From Azohydromonas caseinilytica (GTDB lineage Bacteria > Pseudomonadota > Gammaproteobacteria > Burkholderiales > Burkholderiaceae_C): a DNA stretch of 48,388 nt. The stretch lies in assembly GCF_012927045.1 (NCBI RefSeq), contig NZ_JABBFW010000035.1, positions 1 to 48,388 on the forward strand. Reading direction: 5' to 3'. The notes below the pieces were generated by a model, which searched no databases, was not told the origin of the DNA, and saw only the letters and a list, made by a program, of their open reading frames with translations. Positions 6,655 to 39,421 of this stretch are shown piece by piece (the stretch's first letter is position 1; every line of letters begins with the position of its first letter). A program made the translations under genes and the position numbers.

Positions 6655-7107
6655 TCACTGCGGCATCAGCACGCGGTCGATGACGTGGATGACGCCATTG
6701 CTGGCCGTGATGTCGGTCTTGACCACCTTGGCCTGGTCCACCGTCACGCCGCCCTGGGTGGCGACGGTCAGCGAGCCACCCTGCACGGTGGCCACCTTGC
6801 CGGCCTTGACGTCGCTGGCCATCACCTTGGCCGGCACCACGTGGTAGGTCAGCACCTGGGTCAGCTTGGCCTTGTCCTTGAGCAGCGCGTCGAGCTGCTC
6901 CTTCGGGATCTTGGCGAAGGCCTCGTCGGTGGGCGCGAACACCGTGAACGGACCCGTGCCCTTGAGCGTGGCCACCAGGTCCGCCTGCTTCACCGCCGCC
7001 ACCAGCGTGTTGAAGTTGCCCGCCGACACGGCGGTATCGACGAGGTCGGCCGCGCGGGCGCCCATAGCGGCAAGAACCAGGGCAGAGGCAAGGAAGAGCT
7101 TCTTCAT
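6655..7107 (-). CDS. Fasciclin (FAS1) domain secreted protein
   Basis: This 150-residue exported protein has a signal peptide at residues 1-19 ([19 protein letters not shown]). A single FAS1 domain follows, with the two hallmark boxes: [11 protein letters not shown] and, near the C-terminus, [17 protein letters not shown]1 domains mediate adhesion or surface interactions; in bacteria the function is usually unknown. Start at 7107 is chosen because GGAG lies six bases upstream. It is divergent from the MerR/B12 regulator at 7247 with a 139-base shared upstream region that holds two TGTC-N3-GACA palindromes, so light or B12-dependent control is plausible. Confidence 0.88.
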
Positions 7108-7162
7108 GTCGGACTCCATGGGTGAGAACGCGCCGGGGCGCGGAATTGGTTCTTAAGCCCGT

Positions 7163-7177
7163 TTTGTCCTGGACAAA
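7163..7177. promoter_or_regulatory. Operator candidate 1, TTTGTCC-T-GGACAAA palindrome
   Basis: A perfect 15-bp palindrome (arms of 7, one central base) in the divergent promoter between the fasciclin gene and the MerR/B12 regulator. It shares the core TGTC-N3-GACA with the site at 7227. The position and the paired occurrence suggest binding by the neighbouring MerR-type regulator. Confidence 0.5.
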
Positions 7178-7226
7178 CCGGGCTTGGCACAAATCATAGG
7201 CCTTACCCCCTGCCTTGTTCAAGCAG

Positions 7227-7237
7227 TGTCTAGGACA
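7227..7237. promoter_or_regulatory. Operator candidate 2, TGTCTAGGACA
   Basis: Second TGTC-N3-GACA palindrome, ending ten bases before the ATG of the MerR/B12 regulator. Binding here would block translation start or transcription of the regulator itself, so autoregulation is the natural reading. Confidence 0.45.
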
Positions 7238-7246
7238 ATTGGGGTT

Positions 7247-8167
7247 ATGAGCACTTTGTTGTCGATCGCGGACGTGGAGCGCGACACCGGCTTGGCCAAG
7301 GACACGCTGCGGGTGTGGGAGCGGCGCTACGGCTTTCCGCAGCCGCAGCGCGATGCGCTGGGCGAGCGGCTGTACGCGCCGGAGCAGGTGGAGAAGCTGC
7401 GTCTGATCCGGCGCCTGATCGACGCCGGCCACCGGCCGGGGCGGCTGGTGCCGCAGCCGGTGGAGGCGCTGCAGGCGCTGCTGGGTGGGCGGAAAGAGCC
7501 AGCGGCGGCGCGGGCCCAGGCCCTCACCGGGCCGGACGAGGTGGGCGAGCTGCTGGCGCTGCTGCGCCGCCATGACGCGGCGGCGCTGCGTCAGGCGCTC
7601 ACCCTGGCCGAGGCCCGGCATGGGTTACGCGGCTTCGTCACCGGCGTGGTGGCGCCGCTGGCGCAGCGCGTGGGCGAGGCCTGGATGCAGGGCGAGCTGC
7701 GCATCTTCGAGGAGCACCTCTACACCGAGAGCGTGCAGGCCGTGCTGCACGCGGCGCTGGCCGCGCTGCCGCCGGCGCAGGGACGCCCGCGCGTGCTGCT
7801 GGCCACGCTGCCGGGCGAGCCGCACGGGCTCGGCCTGCTGATGGCGCAGGCGCTGCTGGCGCTGGAGGGCTGCGCCTGCCTGTCGCTGGGCACGCAGGTG
7901 CCGCTGGACGACCTGGTGGCCGCTGCCGCGGCCTGGCAGGCCGACGTGGTGGCGCTGAGCGTCACCGGCTGCCAGAAGCGCAACCTGGTGCTGGCCAGCC
8001 TGGCGCAGTTGCGGGCCCAGATGCCGGCCGAGCGCGCGCTGTGGGTGGGCGGTGCCGCGCCGGCGCTGGGGCGCGGCACGCCACCGGGCATCCGGCGGGT
8101 GGCGGCGCTGGAAGACATTTCCGAGGCGCTGGCGCCATGGCGCGCGCCGGCACCACCGGCGGCTTGA
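7247..8167 (+). CDS. MerR family regulator with B12-binding photoreceptor signature (CarH/LitR type)
   Basis: This 306-residue protein has an N-terminal MerR winged helix (about 3-70, with TLRVWERRYGFPQPQRD), a B12-binding helical bundle (about 95-175) and a Rossmann-type cobalamin-binding domain (about 180-300). Key motifs are present. W146 is followed nine residues later by E156-H157, the Wx9EH pattern that places light-sensitive adenosylcobalamin in CarH. The B12-ligand motif appears as E191-x-H193-x-x-G196 (D/ExHxxG), with LSVT at 237-240 and GG at 268-269. Known members repress light-induced genes in the dark. Start at 7247 gives the expected N-terminus; the upstream extension covers the operators. 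Confidence 0.85.
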   Translation: MSTLLSIADVERDTGLAKDTLRVWERRYGFPQPQRDALGERLYAPEQVEKLRLIRRLIDAGHRPGRLVPQPVEALQALLGGRKEPAAARAQALTGPDEVGELLALLRRHDAAALRQALTLAEARHGLRGFVTGVVAPLAQRVGEAWMQGELRIFEEHLYTESVQAVLHAALAALPPAQGRPRVLLATLPGEPHGLGLLMAQALLALEGCACLSLGTQVPLDDLVAAAAAWQADVVALSVTGCQKRNLVLASLAQLRAQMPAERALWVGGAAPALGRGTPPGIRRVAALEDISEALAPWRAPAPPAA

Positions 8168-8324
8168 AAGTGTCCTGGCCTTCAGTCAGAGCAAGACGGT
8201 GCGCGCTTTTGTCCACGACATGAGCGGCCAGCTGGCGGCGCTCGCCGTGAATGAAGCCAGGACGCGCCGGGGCCGGCCGGGCTGAGGCCACCCGGCCGGC
8301 GCGACGGCCCGGCTCAAGTCCTGA

Positions 8325-9116
8325 TCAAGCCTCGACCATGTCCCGGTACGCATGCCAGCTCGCATGCGCCAGCAGCGGGAAGACGAAGATCAGGCCCAGC
8401 ATCAGCGTCAGGAAGCCCGCCAGCACCAGGGCGACGATGAGCGCGGCCCACAGCAGCATCGGCGCGGGGTTGCGCAGGCAGCACTGCAGGCTCGTGAGGG
8501 CAGCGGTGATCACGTCCACCGGGCGATCCACCAGCAGCGGCGCGCTGACCACGCTGAACGCGAACACGGCTATGGCCAGCAGCGCGCCGGCGCCCAGGAA
8601 GGTCAGCATCAGCCCGAGGTACTGGCCGGACAGCAGCACGTCCGCCATCAGCTGCGAGAGGTGGATGGCCTGGCCGTCGTAATAGAAGGCGAACAGGATG
8701 GCCGCCAGGCGCTCCCAGAAGATGTAGGCCAGCGCCAGCAGCAGGCCGAACAGCGCGATCGAGCCGGCATTGCCGCGCATGGCCTGCCAGGCGCGGCGCA
8801 GGTCCGTGGGCTCGTTGTCCTCCAGCTGGCGTGTCAACCCGTACAGCGTGATGGCCAGGAACGGGCCCACCAACAGGAAGCCGCCCAGCAGGGCCGGTGC
8901 GATGTAGGTGGCCTGCCAGGCCATGGTGCTCAGCAACAGGCCGACGGCGGCCACCAGCAGGCCCAGCCCCAGGCTCGGCCCGGGCGTGCGCATCACGTCG
9001 CGCGCGCCCAGGCGCAACCAGTGCATGGGGCGGTCCAGCCCGACCTGGCGCACGGCGGGTGTGACGCCGGGCAGCGGGTGGGCAAGGCGTTGTCGATCAT
9101 CGAGCGTGTGGTTCAT
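8325..9116 (-). CDS. DUF2189 integral membrane protein
   Basis: This 263-residue inner-membrane protein has about six hydrophobic helices and the family-typical opening (HWLRLGARDVMRTPGPSLGLG) and centre (VGPFLAITLYGLTRQLE). It fits DUF2189 over its full length. The function is unknown. It is a single gene on the minus strand; the 157 bases between it and the preceding MerR gene hold no gene I can support. Confidence 0.82.
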   Translation of the reverse strand: MNHTLDDRQRLAHPLPGVTPAVRQVGLDRPMHWLRLGARDVMRTPGPSLGLGLLVAAVGLLLSTMAWQATYIAPALLGGFLLVGPFLAITLYGLTRQLEDNEPTDLRRAWQAMRGNAGSIALFGLLLALAYIFWERLAAILFAFYYDGQAIHLSQLMADVLLSGQYLGLMLTFLGAGALLAIAVFAFSVVSAPLLVDRPVDVITAALTSLQCCLRNPAPMLLWAALIVALVLAGFLTLMLGLIFVFPLLAHASWHAYRDMVEA

Positions 9117-9312: not shown

Positions 9313-10689
9313 ATGCCTGAACAACTGTGGGCCGCACGGGCCTGGCTGCCCGGCGGCTGGCGCGAGCGGGTGCTGCTGGAGATCGAACGCGACGGGCGCT
9401 GGGCCGCCATCACGCCGGACGCGGAACCGCCGCCGGGCGCCGAGATCGCGGCCGGGCCGCTGCTGCCGGCGCTGGTGGACGCGCACAGCCATGCCTTCCA
9501 GCGCGCCTTCGCCGGGCTGGCGGAAACGCGCGAGGGCGAAACGGACGACTTCTGGTCCTGGCGCGAGCACATGTACCGCGTGGCCCTGCGCATCACGCCC
9601 GAGCAGTTGCAGGCCGTGGCGGCGCAGCTGTACGTGGAGCTGCTGCGCGGCGGCTACACGCAGGTGTGCGAGTTCCACTACCTGCAGCACGATCCGGACG
9701 GCCGGCCTCATGAGGACCCGCTGAGGCTGAGCTGGACGCTGGCCGATGCGGCGGCCGAGGCCGGCATCGGGCTGACGCTGCTGCCGGTGCTGTACGAGCG
9801 CGCCGGTTTCAGCCAGCCGGCGCTGCGCGGGGAGCAACGGCGCTTCGCGCTGGATGCGCGCGGCGTGTGGGAGGCGGCGCGGCGCATCGAGGCGGCGGGC
9901 CGGCCGCTGCTCAACGCGGGGCTGGCGATCCACTCGCTGCGCGCGGCGGCGCCCGGCTCCATCGCCGGGCTGCGCGAGCTGTCCGAGGATTTCGAGGGGC
10001 CGATCCACATCCACGTGGCCGAGCAGGCGGGCGAGGTGGAGGAGTGCGTCGCCGCCACGGGCGTGCGGCCGATCGCCTGGCTGTACCGCGAGGGCCTGCT
10101 CGACCCGCGCTGGCAGCTCGTCCATGCCACGCACGCCACGCGCAAGGAGATCGCGGCCGTGGACGCCAGCGAGGCCAACGTGGTGCTGTGCCCATCCACC
10201 GAGGCGAACCTGGGCGACGGCGTGACGGACCTGGACGGCTGGCTGTCGGCCGGCGTGTGCGTGGCCCTTGGCTCGGACAGCCAGGTGTCGCGCGACGCGC
10301 TGGAGGAACTGCGCTGGCTGGAGTACGGCCAGCGGCTGCAGCTGCGCCGGCGCAACGTGGCGGCGGCGCCGGCCACGGGGCGGCCGTCCACGGCGGCGCG
10401 GCTGCTGGACGTGGCGGTGCATGCCGGCGCCCGCGCCGCCGGCGAGCCGGGCTGGGGCCTGGTGGAAGGCGCGCGCGCCGACGCGCTGGTGGCCGATGCG
10501 CAGGCCGACGGGCTGCTGGGCGTGCCGCCGCCGCGGCTGCTGGACGCGCTGGTGTTCGCCGGCCCGCCGCGCCCCTGGCGCGACGTGATGGTGGCCGGGC
10601 GCTGGGTGATCCGCGACAGCCGGCATGAGCACGCGGCGGCGATCGCGGCGCGGTTCAATGAGGCGATGGCAGCGCTGTGGCGGGATTGA
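9313..10689 (+). CDS. hutF: Formimidoylglutamate deiminase
   Basis: This is a 458-residue amidohydrolase-superfamily enzyme. HutF hydrolyses N-formimidoyl-L-glutamate to N-formyl-L-glutamate and ammonia in histidine breakdown. The metal-site HxH is in DAHSHAFQRAFAG (H58, H60). Further ligand or active-site segments are HIHVAEQ, the LVHATH strand and ALGSDSQVS. The length matches the family. Start at 9313 (MPEQLWAARAWLPGG) fits the family N-terminus; the open frame upstream is the antisense of the DUF2189 gene. No hutH, hutU or hutG is nearby, so the rest of the pathway must be elsewhere. Its 3' end overlaps the convergent glycosyltransferase gene by 35 bases. Confidence 0.9.
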   Translation: MPEQLWAARAWLPGGWRERVLLEIERDGRWAAITPDAEPPPGAEIAAGPLLPALVDAHSHAFQRAFAGLAETREGETDDFWSWREHMYRVALRITPEQLQAVAAQLYVELLRGGYTQVCEFHYLQHDPDGRPHEDPLRLSWTLADAAAEAGIGLTLLPVLYERAGFSQPALRGEQRRFALDARGVWEAARRIEAAGRPLLNAGLAIHSLRAAAPGSIAGLRELSEDFEGPIHIHVAEQAGEVEECVAATGVRPIAWLYREGLLDPRWQLVHATHATRKEIAAVDASEANVVLCPSTEANLGDGVTDLDGWLSAGVCVALGSDSQVSRDALEELRWLEYGQRLQLRRRNVAAAPATGRPSTAARLLDVAVHAGARAAGEPGWGLVEGARADALVADAQADGLLGVPPPRLLDALVFAGPPRPWRDVMVAGRWVIRDSRHEHAAAIAARFNEAMAALWRD

Positions 10690-30960: not shown

Positions 30961-32382
30961 TCAAGCCGCGCCGGATGGCCGGTCCCAGCCCGGGCCGTGC
31001 ACGGCCTCGGCGTAGACACGCACCAGCACCGAGCCCAGCACGCCATGCAGCACGTCGCCCTGCGCGGCGCGGCGCGACACCACGGCGCTGAGCATCCCGC
31101 GCGCGGCCAGGTCCTGCAGTGCCCGATCCACCCAGCCGCGGCGCTGCACCGGGTCCAGCGCCGCGATCTCGGCCTTGATCTGGGCGATGCGGCCGTTGAG
31201 CCAGGCCTCCGCGCCCGGACCGGCATCGGCCGCGACGGCCAGCACCGAGGCAGGCGAGGCGGGCCGCGGCGGCACGGCTTGCGGCGCCACCGGGGCGGCG
31301 CCCTCCTCCACCGGCACGTTGGACGGCGCCGGCAGCGACAGCGCGGCGTCGGCCTCGCCATGGCGCAGCAGTGAGCGCAGGTAGGCGTAGGCGTGCTCGA
31401 TGCCGCGCAGCTTGCGGTTGACGGCGCGACGCTCCAGTACGTCAAGTTGCTCGCGCACCCGCGTCTCGCCAAACTCCTTGAGCAGGCCGTCGAGCTTGGC
31501 CTCGCGGATGCCCAGCGACTCCGCGCGCAGTACCAGCCCGGCATCGACCGGCCCCTCGGCCAGCGCGCGCGGGCGCGGCGTGCCGCGCTTGCGGCGCACC
31601 GCGAACTGCACCTCGCTGACGGCGCGGCCGAGCTTGTGCTCGATGAGCTCGATCTCGATGTCGGTCTCGCTGTTGATCTCCTCCACCGCCGGCTTCACGC
31701 GCTCGTTCTTGAACTTGCGCCACTCGCGCCGCTCGGCGCCGCCCGGCGCGGGGCTGAGCGCGTCGGCCCACCACTGCACCGGCTTGCGGCTGGTGACGCC
31801 GGAGGGGTTGTCGCGGTAGCGGGCGCAGATCTCGTACAGCGCCACCGCGGCGTAGGAGCCGAGCTTGGCCAGCACGTCCAGGTCGATGCGAGCCCAGCGC
31901 GCGGGCTCGCGCAGCGCCGACATGATGGTGGGCGGGTAGGACCAGGACACCCAGTTCTCGCCGTTGCGCACCTCGATGGCCACTTCGGAGAGCATCGAGA
32001 AGCCGCGCCACTTCAGGCCATCGCCCGGCGCGGTGGACTCCCAGTCCACCTCCAGTCCGCGCATCTCGCGCAGGTAGCGCTTGGCGGCGGTGCGGTCCTC
32101 GCCGCTGGAGCCGGTGGTGCGCAGCAGCGCGGGCAAGGGCGCCTCGAACATGTAGTCCGCCGGCGGCATGGCGCTCATGGCCTGCAGCCGCGACTGCGAC
32201 ACCTGCAGCAGCGCGTTGTACAGCCGCCGCCCGGTGAGCGTGACGCGGCGCGAGCGCGGCACCATCACGATCATCTCGTGCGGCTTGCGCAGCTCCGCGC
32301 CCTCCTCCTTCATGCCCGGCTTGCGCACCTCGGCGCCATCGTCCCCTTTGCCCGGCATGCGGGGCGCGTCCTTGTCGTCCAT
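30961..32382 (-). CDS. Replication initiator protein (Rep_3-like)
   Basis: This 473-residue DNA-binding initiator for a plasmid or chromid has two winged-helix regions, at about 48-160 (RRLYNALLQVSQSRLQAM) and about 165-270 (ARIDLDVLAKLGSYAAVALY, then EICARYRDNPSGVTSRKPVQWW). A charged linker and a C-terminal helical part rich in Ala/Arg follow. It is divergent from parA across an iteron-bearing region, the usual arrangement of secondary-chromosome origins in Burkholderiales. A half-iteron in inverse orientation (TGTCCACGCC at 32395) lies 13 bases upstream of its ATG, so self-repression is likely. The N-terminal 35 residues are low complexity. Confidence 0.88.
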   Translation of the reverse strand: MDDKDAPRMPGKGDDGAEVRKPGMKEEGAELRKPHEMIVMVPRSRRVTLTGRRLYNALLQVSQSRLQAMSAMPPADYMFEAPLPALLRTTGSSGEDRTAAKRYLREMRGLEVDWESTAPGDGLKWRGFSMLSEVAIEVRNGENWVSWSYPPTIMSALREPARWARIDLDVLAKLGSYAAVALYEICARYRDNPSGVTSRKPVQWWADALSPAPGGAERREWRKFKNERVKPAVEEINSETDIEIELIEHKLGRAVSEVQFAVRRKRGTPRPRALAEGPVDAGLVLRAESLGIREAKLDGLLKEFGETRVREQLDVLERRAVNRKLRGIEHAYAYLRSLLRHGEADAALSLPAPSNVPVEEGAAPVAPQAVPPRPASPASVLAVAADAGPGAEAWLNGRIAQIKAEIAALDPVQRRGWVDRALQDLAARGMLSAVVSRRAAQGDVLHGVLGSVLVRVYAEAVHGPGWDRPSGAA

Positions 32383-32394
32383 CGCCGGATGATA

Positions 32395-32404
32395 TGTCCA
32401 CGCC
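32395..32404. promoter_or_regulatory. Inverted half-iteron at the rep start
   Basis: TGTCCACGCC is the reverse of the iteron 3' half GCGTGGACA. It lies at the ribosome-binding position of rep, a typical site for Rep autorepression. Confidence 0.45.
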
Positions 32405-32502
32405 GGCTTGGACGGTTACTCATTCGACAGGCAGGAACGTCGCCAAGATTTTCCCTTTCAAGCGTCCGTGCGCATTTCGACGGTTGAAGCCGCCACATTT
32501 AC

Positions 32503-32963
32503 CGGTTAAAGCCTGGACACTTCCGGGAAATGCCTTGGCGCCCTGCCGTGGCAGGGCCGGGTAAATCACGGACGTTTGCCCTGCCGACGTTCCATGGGAT
32601 GCCGAGCAGTCCCGGTTAAAAGCCGGACAGTTGGGCAAGAACCGGTGGGCAAGGGCTGGCCGGATAGCCGGTTAGAAGCTGGACGCTTGCCTTGATCGAT
32701 GTGTTGCGGACAGCCAACCGGCATCGGTTAGGAACCGGACACTTGGTGCGACTGCATCGCTGCTGCTCAGGTCAGCGCAGCGGGTAAATGCTGGACGCTG
32801 GACGATGCAGGCGGCGGCCTGGCGTGATGAACGTCACGGTGAACCTTCCGCAAGCGCCTGTGCACAACTCTTCGGGACGTCCGGTTAAGAAGTGGACACC
32901 AGCCGGATGAAAGTTGGACACATGCGGGTAAGAGGCGGACACAAACGGTTAAAGCGTGGACAC
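32503..32963 (+). repeat. Iteron array (replication origin)
   Basis: About ten directly oriented repeats with consensus CGG(T/G)TA(A/G)(A/G)NN-x-GGAC(A/G)C. Copies begin at 32503, 32558, 32613, 32669, 32725, 32781, 32882, 32904, 32925 and 32946; a degenerate one lies at 32481. The first six are spaced 55-56 bases apart and the last four 21-22 bases (two helical turns). Such arrays bind the Rep initiator and set copy number. Confidence 0.9.
32859..32867 (-). promoter_or_regulatory. DnaA box variant
   Basis: TTGTGCACA on the minus strand, one mismatch from TTATNCACA, lying between the two iteron groups. Confidence 0.45.
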
Positions 32964-33014
32964 AAACCGCGGAAAATTACGCCTAACTCTTTGATATTTA
33001 AGCAATAAATCTAC

Positions 33015-33023
33015 TTATCCACA
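33015..33023 (+). promoter_or_regulatory. Perfect DnaA box TTATCCACA
   Basis: Exact match to the high-affinity DnaA box consensus, inside the AT-rich stretch next to the last iteron. This is the expected place for DnaA to help open the origin. Confidence 0.8.
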
Positions 33024-33145
33024 GGCGTTAATCTCTTGAATTCTTCTAGATATTTCTTAATCCCGGGGTCCGCTGAAGCAAAGGAGGAAGCATCCGTAAT
33101 GCATCGCTTGCCATACGTTTGTGCGCCGCAGCGGCATTCATGCGA

Positions 33146-33188
33146 TTTTTGCGAGGTGCCATGCATAATCGATCGCACCTCCAAAAAC
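33146..33188. promoter_or_regulatory. parA operator candidate
   Basis: Inverted repeat GAGGTGC (33153-33159)-N15-GCACCTC (33175-33181). With one inserted base the arms extend to TTTTTG-(C)GAGGTGC, so about 13 bases per arm. It ends about 20 bases before the parA ATG and is a natural site for ParA (HTH-bearing type Ia) or ParB autorepression. Confidence 0.55.
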
Positions 33189-33206
33189 GTAACAAGCTGG
33201 GATTCC

Positions 33207-34388
33207 ATGGACATCAGACAGGCGATTCGTCGGCAGAGCTTGGCCGACATCGAACACCAAGCCGCTCGGGTGGCGGCGATGATGGGGCACATTCGTGCCG
33301 CGATGCTGCCGCCGGCAGCCAAGAAGACGGCGCCCACGCTCAGTGCGGCCCAGCTGGCGCAGCTGTGCCATGTCGATAAATCCCGCATCGCCTACCGCCT
33401 GACCCGGGGCGACCTGCCCCCCGGCGAGATGCAGGGCAACCGGCGCGAATGGTCCATGGCGGATGCCCGGCAATGGGTGCGCGAGTTCCGCGCCGCGCAC
33501 ATGCGCCCCGAGGGCGCGGCCGGCACAACGCTGACCGTGGCCAACTTCAAAGGCGGCGTGGCCAAGACCACCTCCGCGGTGACGCTGGCACAGGGCCTGT
33601 CCATGCGTGGGCACAAGGTGCTGGTGGTGGATCTGGACCCGCAGGGCTCCGCCACCACGCTGTTCGGCGTGCTGCCGGACGCCGAGGTGGAGCAGGAGCA
33701 CACGGCGATGCTGCTGTTCTCGGGCGCGCATGAGGATCTGAGCTACGCCATTCGCGAAAGCTACTGGCCGGGCATTGACTTGGTCTGCGCCGCGCCGCTG
33801 CTGTTCGGCGCGGAGTTCGCGCTGCCGGCGCGCCAGACCCGCGACCCGGGTTTCGAGTTCTGGCGCGTGCTCGATCGTGGCCTGGACCAGGCGCGCTTGG
33901 ACTACGACGTGATCGTCATCGACACGCCGCCGGCACTGAGCTACGTCACCATCAATGCGCTGATGGCCGCCGACGGCGTGATCATGCCCCTGCCCCCTTC
34001 AGCGCTGGACTTCGCCAGCTCGGCGCAGTTCTGGGACCTGTTCAGCGACCTGTGCAACCAGCTCATCCGCAGCCGCGGGCAGGACAAGACCTTCGAGTTC
34101 ATCGACGTGCTGCTGTCGCGTGTGGAATCCAACGACGCGGCCAGCAGCGTGGTGCGGCAATGGGTGCTGGAGGGTTATGCCGACAAGGTGCTGCCCATCG
34201 AGATTCCCAAGACGGCCGTGACGGCCACCGCCTCGGCGGAATTCGGCACGGTGTACGACCTGCCGCGCGGCTCGATGAACACCAAGACCTTCGCCCGCGC
34301 GCGCGACGCCTACGACCGCATGTGCGAGCTGGTCGAGCAGCAGATCCAGGCGGTGTGGGCCACGCAGCTGGAACAGCTGGCGGTCTGA
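33207..34388 (+). CDS. parA: ParA partition ATPase (type Ia)
   Basis: This 393-residue protein is a ParA-family ATPase that drives segregation of the replicon over the nucleoid. An N-terminal helix-turn-helix region (about 44-95; TLSAAQLAQLCHVDKSRIAY, then RL) identifies the type Ia form that also represses its own promoter. The deviant Walker A motif is KGGVAKTT (115-122), Walker A' is VVDLDPQGSATT, and Walker B is VIVIDTPPAL. Start at 33207 (MDIRQAIRRQSLADIE) is taken because the operator-like repeat lies just upstream; the longer frame to 33036 would run through it. It is followed by parB after 13 bases. Confidence 0.92.
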   Translation: MDIRQAIRRQSLADIEHQAARVAAMMGHIRAAMLPPAAKKTAPTLSAAQLAQLCHVDKSRIAYRLTRGDLPPGEMQGNRREWSMADARQWVREFRAAHMRPEGAAGTTLTVANFKGGVAKTTSAVTLAQGLSMRGHKVLVVDLDPQGSATTLFGVLPDAEVEQEHTAMLLFSGAHEDLSYAIRESYWPGIDLVCAAPLLFGAEFALPARQTRDPGFEFWRVLDRGLDQARLDYDVIVIDTPPALSYVTINALMAADGVIMPLPPSALDFASSAQFWDLFSDLCNQLIRSRGQDKTFEFIDVLLSRVESNDAASSVVRQWVLEGYADKVLPIEIPKTAVTATASAEFGTVYDLPRGSMNTKTFARARDAYDRMCELVEQQIQAVWATQLEQLAV

Positions 34389-34401
34389 ACGGGAGGGTGC
34401 G

Positions 34402-35430
34402 ATGAGTCTCAAGAACAAGGCCGCCAAGCTCGATTTCAGCAACCTGCCCGGCCTGGGGCCGGACACCGGCACGGCAGCGCGGCCCAAGACCGCGCCGGGC
34501 GCGATGATGGCCTTCGCCAACGAGGCCCGTTCCGACCTGCTGCGTGAGAACGAGCTGCTGCAGGCGCGCGCGCAGGAGGCGCAGGCGCTGCAAGGGCGGC
34601 TGGACGAGGCGCTCAACGAGCTGCGCCAGTGGGACGGCGCCAAGGCGACGCGGCTCATCGACGCGGCGCTGATCCGCCCCAGCCGCTGGGCCAACCGCCA
34701 CGAGCTCAACTACGACTCGCCGCAGTTCGACAAGCTCAAGGCCGAGGTGGCGGACGCCGGCGGCAACGTGCAGCCGATCAAGGTCCGGCCGGTGGCCGAG
34801 CCCGAGGGCAGCTTCGAGGTGGTGTACGGGCATCGCCGGCTGGAGGCCTGTCGCCAGCTCGGCCTGCCGGTGCTGTGCCTGGTGGACAACATCGAGGACC
34901 GAGCCCTGTTCGTGGAGATGGAGCGCGAGAACCGCGGGCGCAAGGACCTCTCCGCCTGGGAGCAGGGAATGATGTACCGCCGCGCCCTCGATGCCGGGCT
35001 GTTCCCGTCGCTGCGCCAGCTGGCGGCATCCATCGGCGTGCAGCCGGGCAACGTCAGCACCGCGCTGCAGATTGCGGCGCTGCCGGACGTGGTGGTGCAA
35101 GCCTTTGCCTCGCCGCTGGACCTGCAGTTCCGCTGGGTGGCACCGCTCAAGGCCGCGCTGGAGCGCGACGAGGCCGAAGTGCTGCAGCGTGCCCACGAGA
35201 TCGCGGCGCTGTCGCCGCGTCCGGCCGCACGCGAGGTGCTGGCCCGGCTCACCGGTCCGCATGAGAAAAGCCCGCTCGGACGGCAGACCCGCTACACGCT
35301 GGGCGGCAAGGTGGTCGGTTCCTGGGACAAGGACGCGCAGGGCAATGTTGCGCTGCGCTTCAAGGCCGGCGCACTCAGTGCCGACAAGGAGAAGCGGCTG
35401 CTGGAGCTGCTGGCGAAGTTCTTCGATTGA
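34402..35430 (+). CDS. parB: ParB centromere-binding protein
   Basis: This 342-residue protein binds the proposed parS palindromes and activates ParA. The ParB/Spo0J core begins at about residue 110 with the CTP-binding region: QPIKVRPV, then YGHRRLEACRQLGLPVLCLV (the GxRR box) and ENRGRKDLSAWEQG. A helix-turn-helix (LRQLAASIGVQPGNVSTALQ) follows, which should read the palindrome. A coiled-coil-like N-terminus (50-90, with ARAQEAQALQGRLDEALNEL) and a C-terminal dimerisation part complete it. GGGAGG precedes ATG 34402. A terminator and a parS copy lie directly downstream. Confidence 0.93.
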   Translation: MSLKNKAAKLDFSNLPGLGPDTGTAARPKTAPGAMMAFANEARSDLLRENELLQARAQEAQALQGRLDEALNELRQWDGAKATRLIDAALIRPSRWANRHELNYDSPQFDKLKAEVADAGGNVQPIKVRPVAEPEGSFEVVYGHRRLEACRQLGLPVLCLVDNIEDRALFVEMERENRGRKDLSAWEQGMMYRRALDAGLFPSLRQLAASIGVQPGNVSTALQIAALPDVVVQAFASPLDLQFRWVAPLKAALERDEAEVLQRAHEIAALSPRPAAREVLARLTGPHEKSPLGRQTRYTLGGKVVGSWDKDAQGNVALRFKAGALSADKEKRLLELLAKFFD

Positions 35431-35469
35431 CATGCCGATGCAGCGGCCCTGGGGCCCGCGCCATCCACA

Positions 35470-35490
35470 GGGGCCTGCGGGCCCCTTTTT
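35470..35490 (+). terminator. Rho-independent terminator after parAB
   Basis: Stem GGGGCC / GGCCCC with a 4-base loop (TGCG), then TTTTT. It lies 40 bases past the parB stop. Confidence 0.8.
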
Positions 35491-35507
35491 GCTGCCCGCT
35501 GCGGGGA

Positions 35508-35526
35508 GTGTTCTACGGTAGAACAC
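35508..35526. other. parS-like palindrome, copy 1
   Basis: GTGTTCTACGGTAGAACAC, a 19-bp perfect palindrome with a central G, right after the parAB terminator. The first of four near-identical sites that I propose as ParB binding sites. Confidence 0.75.
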
Positions 35527-36762
35527 CCCGACGCGCCGAGCGCCCGGAGCGCGCCGGCGGCGAAGGCTCGCCTCCTCAGGGGGACGCGCCCCTGTGGCTG
35601 CACGGCTGGTGCGGCGCTGCCGCCGGAGCTGATCGCGTCTCCACCGGGTGGCCTCGCAGGTGGCCGATATCGGCGTGAATCGCGCTGTCAAGGCAGGGCA
35701 GCTCGGCGTGGGCGACATGCCTGCCTGGAACGGCGGTGATCCGGGCCAGCCGCAGCCGCAGCCGCTGCCACGGCACCGAGTTTGGATGGGCCTGGGAGCG
35801 TCCGGCGATCCAGGCCCGATTCCCTTCACTTCGAAACGAATGCGCTCCGTCGTGCGTGCTGGATGTGTCTTGCGAGGCGCTGCCGGTTCGGCCGAACCAC
35901 GAGGCTGCTGCACCTCGCCTCTCCCGAGCCGCGACGGGAAAAGAATCCGGGATGAGGATGCAGCCTGACGCATGCGCCGGCTGCAACGGCCACGCGGCGT
36001 GCGGAAGGTCGGTGCGCCGTGGTGTTTGCCTCTGGCCGGCCGACTGCTGGGTCCGCACCCGGCTGCACGGGCTTGCGTCGGGTGCAGAGCGTTTCAGCGT
36101 CGTGCCGGTCCGCGACCAAGGCCGCTTCGCGTTGGACTTAGGGTGTGCTCAGCGCGGTCCGGCGAAGTTGCCTGCCTTGCTCACGTGCCCTCGCTTGTCC
36201 TTGGGCCAGGCCTCATGAGCCGGGCGAGCAATCCGAACTGAGCGCGGTCGAATTCCGTTCCATGCCGGGACGCGTTGATGCGTCGCAGGCATTGGGGCCA
36301 GTCCGCCGCGGTTCATCCTGCTCGGCGCCTTCATGAGTTGCCCGCAGGGCATGTCGCCGGCATCCGGTGACGGCGTACGCCGGGTCTGGGCGCCGTCTCG
36401 GGCTGGAAGCAAAGCGATGCCGCAATAGGCAGTGGGGCGGGATGTAGATGCTCTTGCTGGGCCGCGTCATGCGATGCCGTGCCGATGAGGCCGGCCCGAA
36501 AGGCGGCGCTTGCCGCGTCCTGGAAGATTCGTGTCCAGCGCTTCTTGGAAGCTGATTGAATCCGGCCGCACTGCGCCCGGCGCCTTCGGATGACGCGCGG
36601 TCTTGGTTCCCGTGCCAAGACTGCTGACGTTGACGAGAACCTTTTTCCCAAGGGCGACAGGCTTGAGGCCGGGATTGGTTGATTGGGTACGGTGCGTTGT
36701 GAGCGTCGTGGCTGCCGCGCCGTCACTGGCACTGGCAGCGCGGACGCCTTGGTGATGTCCTG

Positions 36763-36781
36763 GTGTTCTACCGTAGAACAC
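36763..36781. other. parS-like palindrome, copy 2
   Basis: GTGTTCTACCGTAGAACAC, 19 bp, flanked by G and C so that the symmetry extends to 21 bp. Central base C. Confidence 0.75.
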
Positions 36782-37046
36782 CCCCTGGCCGAGGCCGCGG
36801 TGGCGCCGGAGCCACCTCTCCACCTGCAACGCACCATGCGCTTGGAACTGCCTTCCAGGCCGTTTGCCGGCGGAAGTGCCTGTCTTGAGGCCGGGAGCGG
36901 ACTTCTTGCCGCTGTGCCGGCGCCTGCCTTTACGGCCGAGCGGCCGGCTGCGGAAGCAGGCCGGGGCCGCGCTTGGCACTGAGCCGGCTGGCGTCCGGAC
37001 AGCCTGACGTGGCGTGGAAATGATTCCGGGCATGCAGGCCGGCACC

Positions 37047-37063
37047 TGTTCTACCGTAGAACA
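37047..37063. other. parS-like palindrome, copy 3
   Basis: TGTTCTACCGTAGAACA, 17 bp. The outer G of the other copies is replaced by C, so this is the shortest of the four. Confidence 0.75.
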
Positions 37064-37191
37064 CCAAACCCTCAAGATGCCGGGCCACCCGCTCAGCAGA
37101 CAGGGAGCCCTGCACCGGGTGTCACGCGGATTGCAGGAACCGCGTGCCCGTGCCGGACGCCGCTGCGGCATTCGGAAGGCCGTGGCAGCGG

Positions 37192-37210
37192 GTGTTCTAC
37201 CGTAGAACAC
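37192..37210. other. parS-like palindrome, copy 4
   Basis: GTGTTCTACCGTAGAACAC, extended by GG and CC on the flanks to 23 bp, the longest symmetry of the four. It lies 67 bases from the recombinase stop codon. Confidence 0.75.
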
Positions 37211-37276
37211 CCTCGCCACCTGCAGGCCGCAGCGGCCGATGGACCGGTCCGGCGTGCGGAACTCGGTTGCCCCGGC

Positions 37277-39385
37277 TCACTCCGGCTTGCGTCGCCGCTT
37301 CAGCTTCTCGAACTCGCGCACCATGCGCACCCGCTCGGTGCCGAGATAGATCGTGGTGGTAGACAGGCTGGCATGGCCGAGCGCCTGCTGCAGCACCTCC
37401 ACCGGGATCTGCGCCGCCGCGCCCTGGCGTGCGAACGTGTGGCGCAGCCAGTGCGTGGACGCGGCGCGCAGCCGCGCGGCATCCAGGCCATCCACCGCGT
37501 GGGCGCGCGCCGCTATGCGGGTGAAGAAGCGCTTGAGCATGCGGTACAGGCCGCTGGCGCCCAGAGCCCGGGTAATTGCTGGACGCTCCAGGCCGAGACT
37601 GCCGTCGGCCAAGGCCCGCCAGCGCGGCGGCGCCTCGGCCAGCGTGCACACCAGCGGCGTCGGCGAGGGCAGGGGAGCAACGGCCGCCGCGTCGGCATGG
37701 TGGGCGGCCAGCAGCGCGGCCAGGTCCTCCGCCAAGGGTACCTCGCGGACCTTGCCGCCTTTGCCCTGTACCGACAGCAGGGTCGCATCCTCGCCCGCCG
37801 CGTCGAGCCGCACGCTGCGCACCGACGCCAGCGTGGCACCCGCGATTTCCGACAGCCGCAAGCCGGTGGCCGCCAGCAGCTCCAGCACCAGCCGCAGGCG
37901 CCGCTGCTCGGCGCCCCGCGGTACGCCGGCGCGTGGCCGTGCGGCGGCTTCTTCCAGGCCGAGCTGGGCGCGCACGAAGGCCCATTCGGCCTCGGTGAAG
38001 GAGCGCTCGATGTCGATGTGCGACCCGACCAGCGCCGCCTTCTTGCTCACCGCGCGCAGCGGGTTGCCCACCAGGTAGTTGGCGTCGCGCAGGCCGTCGA
38101 ACAGCGCCTGCACCACCACCAGCGCCTGCCGTTGCGACGCCGGCTTCAGCGGGCCGCGAAACGGCCGCCAGGCCGGATCGTCACGAGCCACCACCGCGGC
38201 GCCACACCAGGCCGGCGGTGGCTGGCGGATGAACTCGCGGTACGCCTGGGCGTCGCGGCTGTCCACCGACGACAGCGCCTTGCCGCGCTCCAGCAGGCAC
38301 CACAGGTAGAAGCGCTCGACCTCCTTGCGGTAGGCGCGCAGCGTGGCCGGCTTCTCGCGGTACTGCGCCAGCCACGCCTCGATGGCCTGCCGGTCGTCCT
38401 CCGCGCCCAGGTGGTTGGGCATGCGGGTGGCGAACAGACCCGGGGCCTGCACCCCACCGGCCAGCCGGGGCGGCACGGCCAGCTGCTCCAGCGGCACCAA
38501 CGCAAAGCGTGGAAGCAGCTGCACCGCGCCCAGGGCCCCGGTCCGCAGCGCGATGCGACGCTGCGGCGCCTCGCGCGCATCGCTCCGCAGCGGCTCCTCC
38601 CAATCGCGTGCCAGCGGCTGCAGCCATTCCAGGAGCCGGTCGGCCCGGGCCCGGCCCAGTCCCTGCACGCGGCGCCACCAGTTGGGCCCAAAGACGTTCA
38701 CCGTCTGCACCAGGGCGGCCAGCGTGCCGATGCCGGCGGCCGTGAGGCGCTCGGCCATCGCCGGCGAGAGCCACAAGGCGACGCGGTCAGGCGGGGCAGG
38801 GCGGCGGGCCAGCAAGGCCTCGATCCGCCGCAGGCTGCGCGCTGCAAGGCCGCTCCGGTCCGACCCAGCTTCCCGGTGCGCCGGCAGCGTCTCCACGCCG
38901 TCCAGCCCATAGAACTCGCGGTACTCGCGCAGCAGCTCCGCCTCGGAATGCGTCTCGCGGTCCAGGCCCTGGCTGTCGATGAACTCGTCCAGGTCGGGCA
39001 GGGCCACCGCGCCCGGCCCGCGCGGCGGTTGCGCCAGCACCTGCAGCTCAGCGGTGATCCGCTCCGATTCCGGCAGCCCGAGGTTGAGGGCATGGCCATC
39101 GCGCAGCACCCGCCGCAACAGCGCTCCGCGCTGGCGCTCGATGCGGCGCAGGTCGGCGCTGAGCTCGCCGAATGCCAGGTAGCGCTCCCAGGCCCGGCGC
39201 AGGTCCAGGCCCTGCAGCCAGCTGCGCAGAAAGGCGAAGTGGTGCACGCCCAGCGCCTGCTCCTCGCGCAGCACCCGCGTCCGGGCCCCGCGTGGGCGGC
39301 CCGGGGGACGCTTTGGCCTCGCGACCTCGATGAGTTGGCTCGAATTCGGCTCCTCTTGCTCCACGCCATCCCCAGATTGATCCAT
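37277..39385 (-). CDS. Large tyrosine recombinase, probable replicon dimer resolvase
   Basis: This 702-residue protein ends in a canonical tyrosine recombinase domain. R510 is in ATGLRLSEI, K542/K545 in GKGGKVREVPL, H645-x-x-R648 in THWLRHTF, H671 in ALGHASLS, and the nucleophile Y680 in TTIYLG. A SAM-like core-binding domain covers about 335-460. The first ~320 residues are an uncommon extension with a helix-hairpin-helix stretch (LTAAGIGTLAALVQTVNVFG, then VQGLGRARADRLLEWL) that may add DNA binding; I recall a DUF3701-type N-terminus in similar chromid proteins. The location next to rep-parAB and a dif-like repeat upstream suggests that it resolves replicon dimers. It could instead be a mobile-element integrase. 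Confidence 0.85.
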   Translation of the reverse strand: MDQSGDGVEQEEPNSSQLIEVARPKRPPGRPRGARTRVLREEQALGVHHFAFLRSWLQGLDLRRAWERYLAFGELSADLRRIERQRGALLRRVLRDGHALNLGLPESERITAELQVLAQPPRGPGAVALPDLDEFIDSQGLDRETHSEAELLREYREFYGLDGVETLPAHREAGSDRSGLAARSLRRIEALLARRPAPPDRVALWLSPAMAERLTAAGIGTLAALVQTVNVFGPNWWRRVQGLGRARADRLLEWLQPLARDWEEPLRSDAREAPQRRIALRTGALGAVQLLPRFALVPLEQLAVPPRLAGGVQAPGLFATRMPNHLGAEDDRQAIEAWLAQYREKPATLRAYRKEVERFYLWCLLERGKALSSVDSRDAQAYREFIRQPPPAWCGAAVVARDDPAWRPFRGPLKPASQRQALVVVQALFDGLRDANYLVGNPLRAVSKKAALVGSHIDIERSFTEAEWAFVRAQLGLEEAAARPRAGVPRGAEQRRLRLVLELLAATGLRLSEIAGATLASVRSVRLDAAGEDATLLSVQGKGGKVREVPLAEDLAALLAAHHADAAAVAPLPSPTPLVCTLAEAPPRWRALADGSLGLERPAITRALGASGLYRMLKRFFTRIAARAHAVDGLDAARLRAASTHWLRHTFARQGAAAQIPVEVLQQALGHASLSTTTIYLGTERVRMVREFEKLKRRRKPE

Positions 39386-39393
39386 TTATATGG

Positions 39394-39421
39394 CGGCATG
39401 ATAATGAGAGTTATCAGGACG
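39394..39421. other. dif/res-like recombination core site candidate
   Basis: Arms CGGCATGATAA and TTATCAGGACG are separated by six bases (TGAGAG), with 9 of 11 arm positions matching in inverted order. The 11-6-11 shape and the inner ATAA/TTAT are those of XerCD dif sites. It starts nine bases upstream of the recombinase ATG, so binding there could also regulate the gene. Confidence 0.55.

Follow-up and report, generated by a model that had tools for sequence, protein, structure and literature searches.

The 48,388-nt stretch of DNA from the soil bacterium Azohydromonas caseinilytica analysed here (the window) is one complete contig, C29, of a draft genome of 98 contigs and 6,654,139 bases. 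It carries a cassette that we consider likely to be the maintenance unit of a low-copy plasmid or megaplasmid, in which a DUF3701 tyrosine recombinase (YR) encoded by the cassette would resolve replicon dimers at a 28-bp site beside its own gene. From left to right, the cassette consists of rep on the reverse strand, iterons, an AT-rich stretch with a DnaA box, parA and parB on the forward strand, four palindromes, the YR gene on the reverse strand and the 28-bp site (Table 1). An initial annotation of positions 30961–39421 had described a Rep initiator divergent from parAB across iterons, an AT-rich stretch and an exact DnaA box, four palindromes 3′ of parB, and a 702-aa tyrosine recombinase with a 28-bp 11-6-11 repeat at its start. 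All of these are present: the palindromes measure 17–23 bp, and the repeat lies 8 bp from the YR start codon. The further claim that initiation, segregation and dimer resolution are packed into a single cassette holds for initiation, partition and a recombinase with its site, which occur together and recur on secondary replicons; the dimer-resolution part is our inference.

Table 1. Features of the rep–parABS–YR cassette in the window, with their positions and the basis of each assignment
Feature	Positions	Strand	Basis or remarks
rep, Rep_3-type iteron-binding initiator, 473 aa	30961..32382	-	Pfam Rep3_C PF21205 above cut-off
Ten iterons, CGG..GGAC type	32503..32966		Six on a 55/56-bp ladder, four on a 21/22-bp ladder
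AT-rich stretch, probable DNA-unwinding element	32994..33053		28% GC, lowest 60-mer of the 48-kb window
parA, RepA-type partition ATPase	33207..34388	+	Pfam AAA_31 above cut-off; open reading frame opens at 33036
parB, 342 aa	34402..35430	+	ParB_N and SopB-type helix-turn-helix (184-254)
parS 1 GTGTTCTACGGTAGAACAC	35508..35526		Palindrome and genome-wide core search
parS 2 GGTGTTCTACCGTAGAACACC	36762..36782		Palindrome and genome-wide core search
parS 3 TGTTCTACCGTAGAACA	37047..37063		Palindrome and genome-wide core search
parS 4 GGGTGTTCTACCGTAGAACACCC	37190..37212		Palindrome and genome-wide core search
DUF3701 tyrosine recombinase (YR), 702 aa	37277..39385	-	DUF3701 and Phage_integrase domains
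28-bp probable recombination core site	39394..39421		11-bp arms 39394-39404 and 39411-39421, spacer 39405-39410 TGAGAG

The same gene arrangement is found in four Azohydromonas species, A. caseinilytica and the comparison genomes of A. australica DSM 1124, A. lata NBRC 102462 and A. aeria CFCC 13393, with identities of 96–97% for ParA, 87–91% for ParB, 85–87% for Rep and 70–77% for the YR. The A. caseinilytica genome itself encodes 11 ParA paralogues (E ≤ 1e-40). A rep gene adjoins parAB in 10 of these 11 modules, the window's included, and lies about 15 kb away in the eleventh, on contig C6; an intact-looking DUF3701 recombinase adjoins parB in four (C29, C20, C67 and C78). Contig C6 also contains pieces of the DUF3701 domain (C6:121603-121870 and C6:43022-43105), two of them overlapping in different frames, that resemble decayed recombinase genes. 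Across 60 genomes searched, 12 had a DUF3701 protein and 12 a ParA at the same threshold, with ten genomes in common, and neither protein was found in any of the nine single-contig genomes among them.

Linkage between the recombinase and parAB extends to plasmids. We collected 27 plasmid records of 25 kb to 2.5 Mb, 26 picked by ParA similarity and one by YR similarity, including two pairs of near-copies (L172 and L181; L179 and L180). A DUF3701 YR lies downstream of parB, within about 4 kb, in 17 of them. Among the other ten, L175 has a 325-aa recombinase that adjoins a second parAB, and two Variovorax records, WDL1 plasmid 3 and RA8 plasmid 3, encode an actin-like protein (ALP_N) downstream of parB (L170:7009-8127 and L174:6532-7653), and this gene and its unknown neighbours occupy the place where many relatives have the YR. 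Beside the actin-like gene, both plasmids encode an annotated hypothetical protein of about 627 aa (L170:8771-9188, cut; L174:8273-10156), the L174 copy of which has no Pfam match.

The window YR combines a DUF3701 domain with a catalytic domain, which places it in the DUF3701 family. The residues that we take to be catalytic (R510, K542, H645, R648, H671 and Y680) are invariant across 20 aligned YRs; in a separate set of 16, one or two proteins differ at R510 and K542. The adjacent 28-bp site has near-symmetric arms, and its inner motif, GATAA-N6-TTATC at 39400-39415, has three exact copies in the genome (reversed control, 0): the one in the window, one on C9 directly upstream of another DUF3701 gene and one on C16 in a parAB module. 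Upstream of the YR, the block GCGTCCTGATAA-CTCTCA-TTATCATGCCGC is common to the four species, with one change per arm in A. australica, and the flanks are unalignable.

A wider comparison used YR loci from named genomes; a protein search returned 80, of which 78 were analysed (one duplicate and one with too short an upstream region were left out). parA or parB is present in 58 of the 78 loci, and the core motif lies within 400 bp upstream of the YR in 29 within one mismatch and in 13 exactly. Its density there is 0.42 per kb for exact matches and 0.52 per kb at one mismatch, whereas the remainder of these loci has 0.014 and 0.005 per kb, giving enrichments of 31-fold and 103-fold; the reversed motif occurs nowhere upstream and three times elsewhere. 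Six of the 78 loci are from Azohydromonas, a partial source of the motif; without them it is still found upstream in 23 of 72 loci, 11 of them exact, and the 23 sites comprise 21 distinct 28-mers. Under a wider rule (700 bp upstream, with two mismatches allowed if strongly symmetric), 65 of 125 non-redundant YRs have a recognisable site, the 125 being those counted of 127. In several YR clades the arms are kept and the spacer drifts between orthologues (for example, TTCTGC, TTCTTC and CCTTCG in the same arms), and in other clades the spacer is constant; the distance from site to gene also differs among clades, from about −40 to −680. An exact motif is present in 3 of 20 whole plasmid records, one copy each. 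In the complete 761,384-bp Diaphorobacter plasmid NZ_CP049906.1 it stands beside the YR; in the other two records, which have no adjacent YR, it lies about 37 and 160 kb from parA. The YRs of several plasmid records have an upstream motif with one mismatch. Some motif matches overlap DnaA boxes between rep and parA, at 33004 in the window and at position 9794 of A. australica contig C12 (locus L085), the latter among three exact matches in that species. Taken together, these comparisons suggest that the 28-bp site is probably the core site of the YR.

ParA scores 229.6 bits against TIGR03453, under the curated cut-off of 348.45, and probably starts at the ATG at 33207. With its ATPase, the helix-turn-helix domain of ParB and cognate parS near parAB, recognised by sequence and covariation, the module has the make-up of a ParABS system, and on sequence grounds we identify the four palindromes as replicon-specific parS, a role that the initial annotation had not named. 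Their core, GTTCTAC(C/G)GTAGAAC, has four copies in the genome, every one in this module, and the reversed control has none. The general form TG-NNNN-AC-S-GT-NNNN-CA matches 25 places in the genome compared with 31 for its reversed control, so the bare count is uninformative, and it is palindromy and place that inform. All 16 perfect palindromes among the 25 sit in ParA modules (four each on C29 and C20, five on C67, two on C6 and one on C57); the other nine places are one imperfect palindrome, on C6, and eight non-palindromic matches. The variable letters read TTCT on C29, GTGG on C20, TTGA on C67, CTAG on C6 and TTGT on C57, and the TTCT of the window module is conserved in all four Azohydromonas species. 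Modules on C16, C78 and C35 have palindromes of other build, and none was detected on C37, C9 and C4 by the repeated-palindrome method. A repeated palindrome is present in seven of the ten sister modules, a different one in each. The highest number of copies among the modules scanned was 15, with core GAAACC-A-GGTTTC, near parB (6730-8685) of Variovorax gossypii locus L244.

Comparison of ParB proteins with their palindromes reveals part of a letter code. The set comprised 83 ParBs with a repeated palindrome (without duplicates or even-length cores), reduced to 41 representatives with 30 codes; modules scored as having no palindrome have no place in it. Residue 217 predicts the fourth letter (N–T in 14 of 15 representatives, D–G in 7 of 7, L/W–A in 7 of 8), and residue 214 the third (D–G in 22 of 22, Q–C in 3 of 3). 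Representatives with other residues at these positions follow no clear rule. Fisher P values are 4e-10 for N217–T and 6e-8 for D214–G, uncorrected for phylogeny or for the 1,644 tests made. Both residues lie inside the helix-turn-helix domain of ParB. The window ParB has Q214 and N217 and should therefore read C and T, matching the letters observed. Many ParB columns also scored on the sixth letter, and were set aside because the signal came from a few distant ParBs without the AC-S-GT centre. A study of ParB and Noc specificity, in the passages available, names four positions of Caulobacter ParB (PMC7383237).

On the other side of parA, the region has the features of a Rep_3-type iteron origin, namely a winged-helix initiator and an iteron array adjoining an AT-rich stretch and a DnaA box. 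Rep is RepM/RepE-like, under the curated cut-offs of those models, and matches RepE and RepB of solved structures weakly (E 0.007–0.008). The iterons are spaced, in order, by 55, 55, 56, 56, 56, 101, 22, 21 and 21 bp, so that two ladders, both approximately multiples of 11 bp, flank a single 101-bp gap; both ladders are present again in the three other Azohydromonas species. The first six iterons (32503-32800) are thus about five helical turns apart, not in a 21–22-bp tandem, and this spacing is kept in the four species. TTATCCACA, at 33015-33023, is the sole exact copy on both strands of the window, and it corresponds to the consensus DnaA box. In plasmid NZ_CP049906.1, the cumulative GC-skew minimum falls at 247,049, inside rep (245,914–247,314); in 20-kb bins, the skew passes from −0.055 at 220 kb to +0.064 at 260 kb, and its amplitude was reached by 0 of 1,000 block shuffles.

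We infer from these comparisons that this copy would be active as an origin and that its proteins would bind and recombine the sites beside them. Rep would bind the iterons and, together with DnaA, open the AT-rich stretch. ParB would bind its four private palindromes, and ParA would move the resulting complex. The DUF3701 YR, acting as a single homomeric enzyme, would recombine the two 28-bp sites on a replicon dimer and thereby resolve it, in the manner of Cre/loxP or XerH/difH.

Several observations weigh against this model. A GC-skew switch of origin sign, which the initial annotation expected at about 33 kb, is not seen: the skew in the window is weak and opposite to that of an origin, at +0.021 left of rep and −0.024 right of parB. 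Nor is a clear switch seen on the module contigs C67 and C78 (both sampled), C20, C16 and C37, on the A. australica orthologue contig C12 or in a 30% sample of a 1.3-Mb Variovorax replicon. Seven of the 11 modules in the genome have no adjacent YR of the DUF3701 family, and the same is true of 10 of the 27 plasmid records (one of which, L177, is cut at the record start), so that the YR is common but not obligatory. No recognisable site was found for 60 of the 125 YRs with enough upstream sequence for the 700-bp rule, and the locus counts are not independent because many loci are interrelated. The best fold matches of the AlphaFold structure of the YR, to Cre, then XerH and XerD, are in favour of our reading, but only local folds count because the structure has a predicted template modelling score (pTM) of 0.40.

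The initial annotation had favoured a different setting, in which the cassette is the origin of a secondary chromosome, or chromid, and the private YR, not XerCD, resolves its dimers. Some close relatives of the module do sit on replicons of 0.76 to 2.5 Mb, but others are on records of 70 to 430 kb, those of the wider set span 25 kb to 2.5 Mb, and the window is a whole contig of only 48 kb in a draft assembly; chromid status is not supported. The replacement of XerCD is not borne out either. The genome encodes XerD (363 bits) and another Xer protein, probably XerC, that scores 245 bits against the XerD model, and an asymmetric dif-like site is present on another contig. This site, CAA-TGCGTA-TTATGT(G/T)AAAT, has one copy in each of the four species and is probably the chromosomal dif of the genus. 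It was found only as a one-mismatch match of the XerD-arm pattern: in nine genomes, a dif-like 24-mer gave no match at up to three mismatches, and CATAA-N6-TTATG occurred at most once per genome. By contrast with the asymmetric arms of an XerCD dif site, those of the 28-bp site in the window are near-symmetric. Since the genome has these components, the private recombinase is an addition to XerCD in the cell, and we regard the chromid reading as unlikely.

All four species have additional XerD-arm sites that carry other spacers. Those of A. australica also speak against the chromid reading, as they are found on other contigs, and one shares its contig with a YR module 104 kb away. Besides the probable dif, A. 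australica has eleven CAA-N6-TTATGTNAAAT sites, on C1, C2, C7, C9, C25, C30, C34, C69, C79 and C91; their spacers are mostly different, some are near contig ends, and they are possibly XerCD sites of other replicons or of Xer-using elements.

Two further readings are improbable to a similar degree, and more so than a chromid. In one, the module is an inactive remnant carried by another replicon, as the weak, wrong-sign skew of the window and the large number of modules (11) for one genome might suggest; its genes are open, however, and orthologues, parS letters and iteron ladder are kept in four species. In the other, the 28-bp palindrome serves to regulate the YR gene, as an operator bound by the YR or another protein, with no crossover taking place. 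A fixed distance upstream of the gene in several clades would fit an operator, whereas the variation in distance between clades would not, nor would the 13 copies of the motif in A. aeria parAB modules with no DUF3701-family YR in the stretch fetched. In addition, arms of about 11 bp around a 6-bp spacer have the geometry of an XerCD-type crossover site (PMC2533119, PMC2731167, both as passages). Least probable of all is that the YR is an integrase and the 28-bp site the attachment site of an integrative element: many records label the YR a 'phage integrase family protein', tyrosine recombinases are often integrases and L181 has an excisionase-family protein annotated upstream of rep (no systematic excisionase search was made), but the YR is linked to rep–parAB on plasmid records, the exact motif is single on a complete 761-kb replicon, beside the YR, and spacers drift between orthologues while arms stay. 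This drift is our main reason to prefer resolution, because an integrase site has to fit a fixed partner, which would keep the spacer constant, and a site for resolution would only have to match its second copy.

The motif copies in A. aeria raise the question of action in trans. This genome has 17 exact GATAA-N6-TTATC sites (reversed control, 0), a count that could be inflated because the assembly has an estimated 6% contamination. Fifteen are in parAB stretches (three with weak ParA matches), that on C157 is beside a YR only and that on C177 is beside neither. For 14 of them, the C177 site and 13 in parAB modules, no DUF3701-family YR was found in the 13–20 kb fetched; contig C111 has a YR about 24 kb from its solo site. 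In these 14 solo sites, all 28 half-sites have A directly after TTATC, which the search pattern did not ask for, and so do all 32 when two like sites from other species are added. They share the symmetric arms TTGATAA...TTATCAA with 0–1 mismatches and have 10 distinct 6-bp spacers, CTGCCA and GCGCAA three times each. When the 16 sites, L138:8001 and L153:7397 among them, are oriented by A-rich or T-rich flanks, A is the last base of the spacer in 15, so they may have polarity. At up to two mismatches, TTGATAA-N6-TTATCAA matches 21 places in A. aeria (control, 1) and 1–13 in nine other genomes (controls, 0–4).

We propose that one YR clade, with single members in A. caseinilytica (C19), A. aeria (C112) and A. 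lata (C33) at 77–82% identity, acts on such sites in trans. The site of the A. lata member has the same arms, that of the A. aeria member differs at two positions and the C19 member has no site in the 700 bp upstream. Within 5 kb of the solo sites, the 12 largest groups of shared genes comprised par genes, frames overlapping them, rep and two unidentified open reading frame families with three loci each. It is a tentative idea, to which we give rather less than even weight, that one trans-acting DUF3701 recombinase serves many co-resident replicons, with the spacer as a barcode that would match on dimers, which then resolve, and not between replicons, which then stay unfused. If true, the spacer barcode and the ParB–parS letter code would be two independent identity tags per replicon.

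Each part of the cassette is of a known kind. In Cre/loxP, plasmid P1 encodes one tyrosine recombinase next to a symmetric site that has an 8-bp spacer. The window YR resembles it as a single plasmid recombinase with an adjoining symmetric site and in its best solved folds, but identity in the fold alignments is 15–18%, and here there are an extra DUF3701 N-terminal part, a 6-bp spacer and other arms. In Rhodobacteraceae, many related plasmids likewise share a cell because the partition palindromes of their RepABC compatibility groups have diversified; those are repABC operons of Alphaproteobacteria, whereas here rep is divergent, of Rep_3 type and accompanied by a YR.

The published systems below were compared from the passages available of each paper. 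In XerS/difSL and XerH/difH, one recombinase gene is likewise linked to its own dif-like site, although those are chromosome systems and here a DUF3701 protein stands by plasmid rep–parAB (PMC2731167). In multi-chromosome bacteria, the central regions of the XerCD sites dif1 and dif2 of co-resident replicons diverge, which has been argued to prevent fusion (PMC2533119); there, two host recombinases bind one arm each, whereas here we propose one recombinase on near-symmetric arms. Spacer divergence as a guard against fusion is therefore not a new idea (PMC2533119). The Burkholderia cenocepacia replicons c2, c3 and p1 share with the cassette a RepA-like initiator, an iteron cluster and parABS of non-overlapping specificity, but the account available names dif sites and no private recombinase, and there are four replicons in all (PMC4948915). 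The TnpR subgroup of tyrosine recombinases, with DUF3701, was described from the transposon Tn4401, and its domain function was called not known (PMC8138268). It has the same N-terminal domain, said to contain a helix-hairpin-helix; a core site and parAB linkage, given here for the window YR, are absent from the passages of that paper (PMC8138268). In the literature searched, partly available as passages, no published account was found of the DUF3701 core-site motif, the rep–parABS linkage or the ParB letter code, and sites with shared arms and different spacers are also new as far as these searches show.

These findings give DUF3701 recombinases a proposed target site and a proposed job. A residue-to-base code for a plasmid ParB family could help to predict plasmid compatibility from sequence, and if spacers diverge under a single recombinase, plasmids would come under the same rule as has been argued for XerCD in multi-chromosome bacteria (PMC2533119, in the passages available). 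The cassette family has diversified into versions with different parS, by which about eleven could co-exist in one genome, and this suggests a way for a single bacterium to maintain that many related plasmid-type replicons as separate units.

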